DNA of 64,000 nucleotides from an uncultured Bacillota bacterium. GTDB taxonomy: Bacteria > Bacillota_I > Bacilli_A > Culicoidibacterales > ZOR0006. The notes under the pieces are model-generated. The model was not told where the DNA came from and searched no databases. It was given only the letters and a program-made list of their open reading frames with translations. Positions 31,616 to 60,447 of the stretch are shown in pieces. Every line of letters begins with the position of its first letter. The first letter of the stretch is position 1. Both the position numbers and the translations under genes were made by a program. The stretch lies in NCBI GenBank assembly GCA_945956935.1, contig CAMFJD010000006.1, positions 1 through 64,000 on the forward strand, written 5' to 3'.

Positions 31616-32221
31616 ATGGGGATGTATAAAAAACAACTATTTGGATATAACCAAAGTGCAGTTGAGCAACAACAAAAACAAACTGAAACATTGTTGAAAG
31701 AACGCGATATTCAACTTTTTGATCAACAAGCTCAGGTGCAAAAGCAACAAGAAGAAATCGTGTTGTTAGAAGCAAAAATTGCCAAGCAACAGATTGAAAA
31801 TGAAGAATTAACTAAAAAGGTTGAAAAGCTCTCGCATGAAGTCGCAAATTATGATAATATAGAGCAGACCTTATCAACTGCACTCGTTGTTGCTCAAGAA
31901 GCGGCACAAAATTTACGAGTAATGGCAGCAAAAGAGGCTCAATTGATTGTACAGCAAGCTCAGGAGCAAGCAAAAGCAGAAACACAAGCAGCACTGAAGC
32001 AAGTTGAAACAATTCAATTGCAAGCAGAGCAATTAAAACGTGAATCGCATGTATTTAAAACGCGGATTCGCATGTTACTTGAAGCACAGCTAGAATTGAA
32101 CGCCGATGAAGTATGGAATCAAATTTTTGAACCAATACAACATGAAGCGAATACAAGCATTGAAGGAGAACAAGTAAATCAAGCCCAATCTTGTAGCGAA
32201 CTAGGGATGGTGGAAGCCTAG
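31616..32221 (+). CDS. divIVA: Divergent DivIVA-like coiled-coil protein
   Basis: 201 residues from the ATG at 31616 (AAGGGAGA 7 bases upstream). The N-terminal lipid-binding domain is much reduced: instead of the usual TPLDIHNKEF plus GYDEDEVNEFLD, only KKQLFGYNQSAVEQQ remains. Long Gln/Glu/Lys-rich coiled coils (about 15-95 and 105-150) follow. Identification rests on gene position and the coiled coil more than on sequence, so the function at curved membrane may be altered. Its last 18 codons overlap the 5' half of stem I of the ileS T-box RNA. Confidence 0.8.
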   Translation: MGMYKKQLFGYNQSAVEQQQKQTETLLKERDIQLFDQQAQVQKQQEEIVLLEAKIAKQQIENEELTKKVEKLSHEVANYDNIEQTLSTALVVAQEAAQNLRVMAAKEAQLIVQQAQEQAKAETQAALKQVETIQLQAEQLKRESHVFKTRIRMLLEAQLELNADEVWNQIFEPIQHEANTSIEGEQVNQAQSCSELGMVEA

Positions 32222-32402
32222 GAAGATTTGTTGATTGAACGTATCACTCCTGAGCTCATGCAAGAACCAATAATGGTGTAGACGCATGCGGAGTGGCGAA
32301 CGTTATTTCGCTTTAAGAGGCAACTTTTTTACAAAGTTGTGAAGTAAGGTGGTACCACGGAACTTTTTCGTCCTTATCAAGTGATTGATAAGGGCGTTTT
32401 TT
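32165..32402 (+). promoter_or_regulatory. T-box leader of ileS (specifier ATC, isoleucine)
   Basis: The stem I pairings are GGAG/CTCC (32165-68 with 32247-50), AATCAA/TTGATT, AATCTT/AAGATT and CTAGG/CCTAG. The specifier loop has AGTA (32173-32176) on one side and ATC followed by A (32243-32246) on the other; an AG bulge (32195-32196) and a GATGGTGGAAG apical loop are canonical. The T-box sequence AAGGTGGTACCACGG is at 32346-32360. The terminator CGTCCTTATC/GATAAGGGCG plus T6 is at 32369-32402. Uncharged tRNA-Ile would favour the antiterminator and ileS expression. Stem I starts inside divIVA. Confidence 0.95.
32369..32402 (+). terminator. Conditional terminator of the ileS T-box
   Basis: CGTCCTTATC pairs with GATAAGGGCG (10 bp, one G-U), followed by a T-run ending 27 bases before the ileS ATG. 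It competes with the antiterminator formed by the T-box sequence. Confidence 0.92.
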
Positions 32403-53490: not shown

Positions 53491-53519
53491 TTGCCATATG
53501 ACTTGTTTTCATGTAAAGT
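53491..53519 (+). promoter_or_regulatory. Promoter of fhs
   Basis: TTGCCA (53491-53496), 17 bp, then TAAAGT (53514-53519). Transcription would start near 53526, right at the 5' strand of riboswitch P1 (53528). Confidence 0.65.
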
Positions 53520-53527
53520 TAAGCTAT

Positions 53528-53598
53528 CATCGTATAGTGGCAAGGAAAAATGGCTTGCGAGTTTCTACCTGTTGACCAATTTTCAACAGACTACGATG
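53528..53598 (+). promoter_or_regulatory. Purine riboswitch (guanine type, variant loops) before fhs
   Basis: P1 is CATCGTA/TACGATG (53528-34 with 53592-98), P2 is GCAAG/CTTGC, and P3 is CTGTTGA/TCAACAG. The junction has the invariant GTTTCTACC, and C53591 is the base that pairs with the ligand, predicting guanine. The loops deviate: L2 is GAAAAATGG (9 bases, usually 7 as in GATATGG) and L3 is CCAATTT rather than CCGTAAA, though the GG/CC kissing pairs remain possible. A terminator at 53641-53675 would stop fhs when ligand binds. Confidence 0.88.
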
Positions 53599-53640
53599 CT
53601 ACCTATGCTTTTTTAGTATAGGTAGCAAGTTTGGAAACGA

Positions 53641-56933: not shown

Positions 56934-57077
56934 AGAAAACGATATCATTTGTGCATCGTCACAAAAAAAATGAAAATGTATGTAAAAACAGAAAAAAGAC
57001 TTGTTTAGAATGTTTAATATTGTTATTATCATAGGTGAAAAAAGTATTAATAAAATATACTTTTGATAAAAGAATAA

Positions 57078-57144
57078 TTCGTATAATAGCAAGGATATGG
57101 CTTGCAAGTTTCTACCGATTTCCCGTAAAGAGATCGACTACGAT
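57078..57144 (+). promoter_or_regulatory. Guanine riboswitch in the purE leader
   Basis: P1 is TTCGTA/TACGAT, P2 GCAAG/CTTGC with canonical L2 GATATGG, P3 CGATTTC/GAGATCG with canonical L3 CCGTAAA, and the junction is AAGTTTCTACC. C57138 is the ligand-pairing base, which predicts guanine or hypoxanthine. A TATACT at 57056-57061 is the likely -10. Downstream, GATGT...ACACT can pair with AGTGT-ACATC (57142-57199), which would compete with P1. Confidence 0.95.
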
Positions 57145-57220
57145 GTATCACACTTTTTAGATTGCTTTTTAGTAATATGAAAATTTTCAGTGTACATCGC
57201 GAATTCATAGGAGGATGACC

Positions 57221-57289
57221 ATGAACGCAATGACAACACATAAACAATCGAAACAAGAATTTTACGCAGCAGAAGTATGTGCTTTTTAA
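57221..57289 (+). CDS. 22-residue ORF in the purE leader
   Basis: ATG at 57221 with a perfect AGGAGG 6 bases upstream and TAA at 57287-57289. The peptide contains MTTHKQSKQEF and ends AAEVCAF. It has no run of one amino acid, so it does not look like a classical amino acid attenuator. The stop codon lies inside a larger hairpin that ends in T6 before purE. It may be a leader peptide whose translation affects that hairpin. No family is known to me. Confidence 0.5.
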   Translation: MNAMTTHKQSKQEFYAAEVCAF

Positions 57290-57317
57290 GTACCGTACAT
57301 TTGCTGTGTTTTTTGTT
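57264..57317 (+). terminator. Terminator-like hairpin overlapping the leader ORF
   Basis: ACGCAGCA (about 57264-57271) pairs with TTGCTGTGT (about 57301-57309), with an inner ATGT/ACAT, and is followed by T6. It is imperfect. Its 5' arm is inside the 22-codon ORF, so ribosomes could block its formation. Confidence 0.55.
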
Positions 57318-57360
57318 TATGTAGCATGCGCCTAGGTCATAACGAAGGAGCGTAATCAAA

Positions 57361-57858
57361 ATGGAACAAAAAATTGGTATTATTATGGGTAGCCAATCAG
57401 ATTATCAAACAATGCAAGCGACAACATCGGTGCTCGATGAACTCGGAATTGCATATGATGTACGAGTGATTTCAGCACACCGTACACCGGAAGCGATGAT
57501 CGAATATGCAAAATCAGCTCGTGACAAAGGGCTACATGTGATTATTGCGGGAGCAGGGGGCGCAGCACATTTACCGGGAATGGTTGCAGCTTGTACGACA
57601 CTACCAGTTATTGGGGTGCCGGTTCAATCGCGTGCATTAAATGGTTTGGATTCTTTGCTATCAATTGTCCAAATGCCAGCTGGTGTGCCAGTTGCGACAG
57701 TTGCAATTGGTGAAGCAGGGGCGAAAAACGCAGGGTTATTAGCAGCTCAATTACTTGGAATGACAGATAAAGCGATTGCACAACAACTAGAGGCTTATAG
57801 ATTAGTCATGAAACAGGCAGTTGAAGCAACAGCCGATTTGTCGGAGGTTCGCAAATGA
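57361..57858 (+). CDS. purE: N5-carboxyaminoimidazole ribonucleotide mutase
   Basis: 165 residues. It has [22 protein letters not shown] and the [15 protein letters not shown] loop of class I PurE. It moves the carboxyl group from N5-CAIR to C4 to give CAIR, working with PurK. GAAGGAG precedes the ATG. Its stop overlaps purK. Expression is under the guanine riboswitch and probably the leader hairpin. Confidence 0.97.
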
Positions 57859-60298: not shown

Positions 60299-60317
60299 TA
60301 CTATCTTATATATACGA

Positions 60318-60385
60318 CTACATATATCTTCAGAAATTGGTCTGAAAGTCTCTACCCCCACGCCGTAAACAAGGGGACTATGTAG
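60318..60385 (+). promoter_or_regulatory. Guanine riboswitch before purL
   Basis: P1 is CTACATA/TATGTAG (60318-24 with 60379-85), P2 TTCAG/CTGAA, P3 CCCC/GGGG with CCGTAAA in L3, and the junction has GTCTCTACC where GTTTCTACC is usual (one substitution). C60378 is the ligand-pairing base. A strong terminator follows at 60448-60473. Confidence 0.93.
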
Positions 60386-60447
60386 AAGTGTTTTTCGTAC
60401 ACGCAAAAATGATGTTTTTGGGTGTAAAAAGAGTACTTCTGCAAGAG

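Follow-up and report, generated by a model that had tools for sequence, protein, structure and literature searches.

The DNA analysed here, referred to as the window, is a stretch of 64,000 nucleotides from an uncultured Bacillota bacterium. It contains purE, the first gene of the controlled operon, with purK behind it; the purE leader combines a purine riboswitch aptamer, a short ORF, and a terminator-like hairpin. The features of this region are as follows.

57001..57029, + strand: promoter-like element TTGTTT-17-TATTAT, read from the sequence; its counterpart in the congener G001, TTGTCT-17-TATTAT, is at the equivalent place
57059..57160, + strand: guanine-type purine riboswitch aptamer (RF00167, 82.2 bits against a cut-off of 37)
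57079-57083 pairing with 57139-57143, + strand: P1 of the aptamer
57141..57199, + strand: anti-P1 hairpin (-15.3 kcal/mol), also present in the congener
57190..57239, + strand: alternative hairpin over the Shine-Dalgarno (SD) site and AUG, obtained in the fold with P1 imposed; putative function
57209..57214, + strand: SD sequence AGGAGG of the leader ORF, read from the sequence; SD to AUG is identical in the congener (15/15)
57221..57289, + strand: leader ORF of 22 codons, ATG at 57221 and UAA at 57287-57289, MNAMTTHKQSKQEFYAAEVCAF
57264..57320, + strand: terminator T2, hairpin 57264-57309 plus U tract (-21.8 kcal/mol)
57361..57858, + strand: purE, with SD sequence AAGGAG upstream

The transcript is expected to start near 57036, given the promoter-like element. 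The covariance match to RF00167 is full length (1-102) with an intact core, and the sequence GACUAC is read at 57136-57141, with C at 57138. In purine riboswitches, a C at the J3/1 specificity position confers guanine specificity; C57138, which we take to be that position, would make the aptamer guanine type, in agreement with the initial annotation. The hairpin competing with P1, which had been placed at 57142-57199, is found at 57141-57199 and takes up the P1 3' strand by pairing CGAUGUA (57141-57147) with UACAUCG (57193-57199). The initial annotation had also described a 22-codon ORF with an AGGAGG site and a stop in a terminator-like hairpin before purE, and this anatomy is confirmed: the UAA lies within the apical loop of T2, which begins inside the ORF at 57264 and overlaps it by 26 nt. 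The program-made ORF list starts the frame two codons further upstream, too near the SD sequence, and ATG 57221 is used here. A simple terminator scan did not report T2, which is longer and interrupted and probably falls beyond the limits of the scan.

As initially remarked, an obvious riboswitch terminator with a T-run is missing; in the window, no terminator of the riboswitch's own (T1) passes the scans of the segment from the aptamer to the ORF. The sole candidate there, an inner hairpin at 57154-57183, nested in anti-P1 and followed by four T, folds at -6.1 kcal/mol and is nearly all A-U. In the minimum-energy fold, ACAUAAACAA (57238-57247, within the ORF) pairs with UUGUUUAUGU (57313-57322, past the T2 U tract). 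This helix would lengthen T2, and the congener is capable of a similar helix with other bases; because it forms past the U tract, it would form only after termination has been decided.

The leader can be read as a two-stage attenuator, in which the guanine riboswitch governs translation of the leader ORF, translation governs T2, and T2 governs transcription of purE; we give this reading somewhat more credence than its negation. Transcription of the operon probably hinges on the ribosome on the leader ORF. For stage 1, the likeliest output of the riboswitch is translation of the ORF, since it has no terminator of its own in the window. Without guanine, the anti-P1 hairpin would hold the arm 57190-57199, leaving the ORF start site reasonably accessible. 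In the presence of guanine, P1 would form and the freed arm would fold over the SD sequence and AUG through the pairs 57190-57193/57236-57239, 57195-57197/57230-57232, 57199-57201/57226-57228, and 57204-57208/57221-57225; the segment 57186-57241 folds at -12.7 kcal/mol. The ORF would then go untranslated, T2 would stop transcription, and the operon would be off. We infer that guanine represses the operon, which is what one would expect for genes of purine synthesis.

Forced folds are consistent with stage 1. The cost of opening the SD sequence and AUG is 5.0 kcal/mol with P1 forced versus 2.4 with anti-P1 forced in the window, 5.3 versus 3.3 in G001, and 6.8 versus 4.4 in G068, and the SD sequence is still partly paired in the anti-P1 state. 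The two states differ by less than 1 kcal/mol in the window and G001 at the length folded. Under a stricter control, in which P1 is only forbidden, the difference is 0.8 (window), 1.0 (G001), 3.4 (G068), and 1.2 (G272) kcal/mol, values reached by 38/150, 35/150, 7/150, and 15/150 shuffles, respectively. The sign of the effect is alike in all four leaders; leaders with self-terminated riboswitches scatter around zero. Different base pairs cover the start region in the window and G001, so the comparison gives no proof by covariation. The chance that the guanine riboswitch gates ORF translation in this genus is put at a little better than even.

For stage 2, a ribosome arriving at the stop codon before RNA polymerase has left T2 would occlude the 5' arm of this terminator, block the hairpin, and allow transcription to continue into purE; if the ORF were not translated in time, T2 would form and transcription would end. 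A mask of 30 nt representing a ribosome at the stop changes the T2 fold from -21.8 to -3.3 kcal/mol. The anatomy is that of a pyrBI-type attenuator, in which the terminator overlaps the ORF and a ribosome near the stop covers the 5' arm. Since T2 is a strong intrinsic terminator, Rho would not be needed. A ribosome at a nearby stop is known to abolish an intrinsic terminator (PMC4824070; PMC5021804): in E. coli, termination fell from ~90% to <10% when the stop was shifted from 28 to 5 bp upstream of the terminator, and the ribosome effect was lost without translation (PMC4824070). Stage 2 has been deduced from anatomy and from the comparison with relatives described below, which supports it well.

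The arrangement is unique within the window. Both strands were scanned, yielding 79 and 77 terminator-like hairpins; among these 156, a single one, that of the purE leader, has an SD-preceded short ORF stopping in it upstream of a gene. A stop-in-terminator ORF is also absent from 15 other purine-riboswitch leaders, drawn from this genome, the congener, and two other genomes within the order. Two further purine riboswitches lie in the window, at 53510-53613 before a formate-tetrahydrofolate ligase-like gene and at 60300-60400 before the gene after purB, each with a plain terminator and no leader ORF.

G001, the only congener compared, has a PurE 88% identical to that of the window. The order of leader parts is unchanged and the ORF again has exactly 22 codons, conservation of ORF length in relatives having been a check suggested initially; the bases of codons 2-22 are 49% identical, against 97% for the aptamer. 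A terminator-like hairpin is present upstream of the ORF in G001 and G068, so that only the window and G272 clearly lack T1.

PurE was located in 395 genomes of the class and in 273 genomes of family f19, and the stretches upstream were retrieved. For 92 purE leaders of the class, terminator-like hairpins and SD-preceded ATGs were mapped, and the first in-frame stop was counted as positive when it fell anywhere from 6 nt before the hairpin to the hairpin end. By this measure, 55 of the 69 ATG sites that have a terminator downstream of them have an in-frame stop in or abutting the terminator, versus 3 and 6 when the same ATGs are read in the +1 and +2 frames; weighted by peptide cluster, the figures are 24.4 of 33 in frame versus 2.5 and 1.7 in the other frames. 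Among proximal cases the stop lies inside the hairpin itself in 28 of 41, and the distance from the end of T2 to purE is 20-61 nt (median 26). A promoter could hardly fit into this gap, so purE must be reached by readthrough.

The leader peptides (median 20 residues) fall into about 33 mutually unrelated groups, which rules out peptide conservation as the explanation of the leader ORF. The leader L166 carries AAGAAGATTCACAAAAC, common to its neighbours, in another reading frame, and its stop is still within the terminator. Because the peptides are unrelated and this frame switch keeps the stop, selection appears to act on the reading frame and the position of its stop rather than on the peptide. 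Where the ORF start is strongly conserved (GGAGGTCTTACTTATGGTCTTAAG), as it is in one group, this element occurs once per genome, before purE, the exception being an extra match with three mismatches in G546. In four leaders of family f19 (L160, L163, L167, and L177) and their relatives, GGAGGTCTTACTTATGGTCTTAAGAAGA is conserved across the SD sequence, the spacer, and the first codons, with GGTCTTA occurring twice; here conservation at the level of bases goes beyond the peptide.

The ORF-terminator unit occurs in several relations to the aptamer. According to script counts, which are approximate, the 92 leaders comprise 29 with ORF and terminator but no aptamer, 25 with the aptamer only, 13 with the aptamer followed by ORF and terminator, 10 with ORF and terminator followed by the aptamer, 6 with an ORF running through the terminator, and 9 with neither element. 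Aptamers were recognised by pattern; the G068 aptamer lies outside the stretch examined, L156 is cut by a contig end, and the G242 ORF was missed owing to its SD sequence. Some of the riboswitch-less leaders with ORF and terminator are too short to accommodate a sensor RNA, and no known RNA family in Rfam lies over the riboswitch-less leaders, even at E 0.5. In G075, G194, and L149-L152 of family f19, a riboswitch with its own terminator is followed by the ORF unit as a second barrier. Elsewhere in f19 (L184, L189, L191, L196, L198, L207, and L208), as in G126 and others, the unit lies upstream of a purine aptamer; the f19 leaders of this kind have two attenuators in series, in the order opposite to that of the window. 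Found without an aptamer, after a self-terminated riboswitch, and upstream of an aptamer, the ORF-terminator unit, as read from these leaders, is a module of its own and not a riboswitch accessory, and the window is one of several combinations.

The chain from riboswitch through ORF translation to purE, as originally proposed, is therefore upheld in part. The conservation of the ORF, its SD sequence, and the position of its stop goes well beyond chance, and the forced folds agree with the first link; as a general rule this link is not supported, the unit being found without or apart from the aptamer, and under the stricter folding control the window effect is small. Relatives that keep the riboswitch and lack the ORF had been named as evidence against the proposal. 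They occur in families f4, f8, f13, and f22, where a plain riboswitch is usual before purE, but the cases viewed by eye have a riboswitch terminator before purE, which is missing from the window. The named relatives inspected, too distant for a close comparison, showed either a plain riboswitch leader or no riboswitch at all, and by eye none had an upstream ORF with terminator. A stop-in-terminator attenuator of purE that is independent of the riboswitch is both wider and better supported than the first proposal.

Regulation by PurR was considered as an alternative for purE. The PuR_N domain has no match in the window genome (G000), G001, G068, G272, and others, while the B. subtilis control was positive; its lack in the window genome and the congener speaks against PurR there. 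Some genomes (f19, G003) have weak PuR_N matches; most of these fall in frames of about 500-690 aa and probably represent other helix-turn-helix regulators.

The independence of the module raises an alternative to the two-stage reading that is unlikely but deserves the most weight, namely that the leader contains two separate layers. The ORF and T2 would form a pyrBI-like attenuator of ribosome-polymerase coupling, in which a slowing of the polymerase when nucleotides are scarce lets the ribosome close in and keep T2 open, and the riboswitch would contribute guanine sensing separately and not mainly through the ORF. This analysis by layers accounts for units seen without an aptamer, in short leaders, and before or after complete riboswitches, and agrees with the lack of both a conserved peptide and an enriched amino acid and of a PurR N-domain in G000 and G001 with a positive control; the pyrBI terminator likewise lies within a leader ORF and goes unsuppressed at normal UTP (PMC4824070). 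It would deprive the window's riboswitch of any visible output, and the composition of the ORF (A 37%, T 33%, G 17%, C 13%) reveals no purine tract to sensitise the polymerase. This base composition gives no support to a purine-rich ORF serving as an ATP/GTP-sensitive pause.

It is very improbable that the riboswitch acts on T2 directly by long-range pairing, with the ORF incidental in this genus. The helix 57238-57247/57313-57322 of the minimum-energy fold indicates that long-range contacts are possible, but it forms only once the T2 U tract has been passed, and no pairing of the aptamer arms that would oppose T2 appears in the folds. An incidental ORF is also at odds with the retention of its length and of SD to AUG while the codons diverge, and with the in-frame stop rule across families.

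Even less credible is a trp-type attenuator, in which charged tRNA would be sensed through regulatory codons in the ORF. A short ORF with its own ribosome site upstream of a terminator fits such a device, but no amino acid is enriched among the peptides of the 33 groups (Gly 2.3%, Gln 3.3%, Asp 2.2%), and the stops lie in the hairpin or ≤6 nt from it, whereas in amino-acid attenuators the terminator is >20 bp from the stop (PMC4824070); composition and stop position together argue against amino-acid sensing by the leader ORF. Genes often end shortly upstream of terminators, but that the ORF is a small independent gene ending at its own terminator, with purE as a separate unit, is just as hard to credit given the stops within the hairpin, the unrelated peptides, a purE left without a promoter in the remaining 20-61 nt, and the conserved-start ORF that is single-copy before purE save for the one extra match in G546.

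The two-stage reading of the window can be set beside several known systems. RF00167 purE leaders of Bacillus relatives resemble it in the aptamer, the gene, and anti-P1 as the ligand-free alternative. An ordinary guanine riboswitch has a single intrinsic terminator about 60-75 nt past the aptamer (G009, G042, G390, and others); the window has no such terminator and would instead use a translated-ORF stage. The closest likeness in the second stage is to the pyrBI operon of E. coli, whose intrinsic terminator overlaps the leader ORF pyrL and is suppressed by a close-following ribosome (PMC4824070, PMC5021804). pyrBI differs in being a pyrimidine operon with UTP-sensitive pausing and a terminator within the 135-bp pyrL, whereas the purE unit has an ORF of about 20 codons with the stop inside the hairpin and is often joined with a riboswitch. 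In M. tuberculosis, the Mbox-rv1805A and B12 riboswitch-ppe2 systems have short upstream ORFs controlled by a riboswitch with a translational platform (PMC12810186, PMC11260477). As proposed for the window, translation of the upstream ORF matters for downstream transcription or expression; these systems differ in their use of Rho-dependent termination or reinitiation, in their ligands, and, for Mbox, in a conserved peptide, whereas the window has an intrinsic terminator overlapping the ORF. The ilvB and fthC motifs have an upstream ORF before an intrinsic terminator, and the fthC stop is often in a hairpin (PMC11109978); they have no aptamer and precede other genes, the stop in fthC is located in P2 rather than the terminator, and ilvB has regulatory codons. 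The initial annotation knew of no described purine leader of this order; likewise, the literature covered, which mostly excludes subscription journals, yielded no leader ORF for purine genes or purE, and for purine operons neither a riboswitch-controlled upstream ORF nor a terminator suppressed by a ribosome within a leader ORF.

More widely, it is possible, though we hold the view only tentatively, that a class of low-GC Firmicutes relatives, mostly without recognisable PurR, relies on an undescribed attenuator to control de novo purine synthesis. In it, an ORF of free sequence, with the stop in the terminator as the sole conserved property, would read ribosome-polymerase coupling and hence the supply of purine nucleotides; its combinations with the guanine riboswitch would differ in order, and one of them would be the riboswitch-driven ORF of the window. 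Ribosome-polymerase coupling in Firmicutes relatives is generally thought to be weaker than in E. coli. If the wider view is true, coupling control of the pyrBI type would extend to purines and to Firmicutes relatives, which suggests how purE is controlled where no PurR is detected. If the two-stage reading of the window is true, a ribosome positioned at an intrinsic terminator would serve as the readout of a metabolite riboswitch, joining two separately known principles. The comparative set constitutes a natural series, with the attenuator on its own, upstream of the riboswitch, downstream of it, and under its control.

Other leaders depart from these layouts. In L093 (G003, of the same order as the window genome), the 3' arm of the riboswitch terminator contains GGAGTT, which resembles an SD sequence for a TTG-started frame; this frame passes through a second terminator and stops over the start of purE (ATGCGTAA). 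In L110 (G052), tandem purine aptamers at 1137-1238 and 1352-1453 precede one purE, and each is followed by a terminator-like stretch. The window itself also contains a T-box leader at 32151-32378 (RF00230, 103.6 bits).
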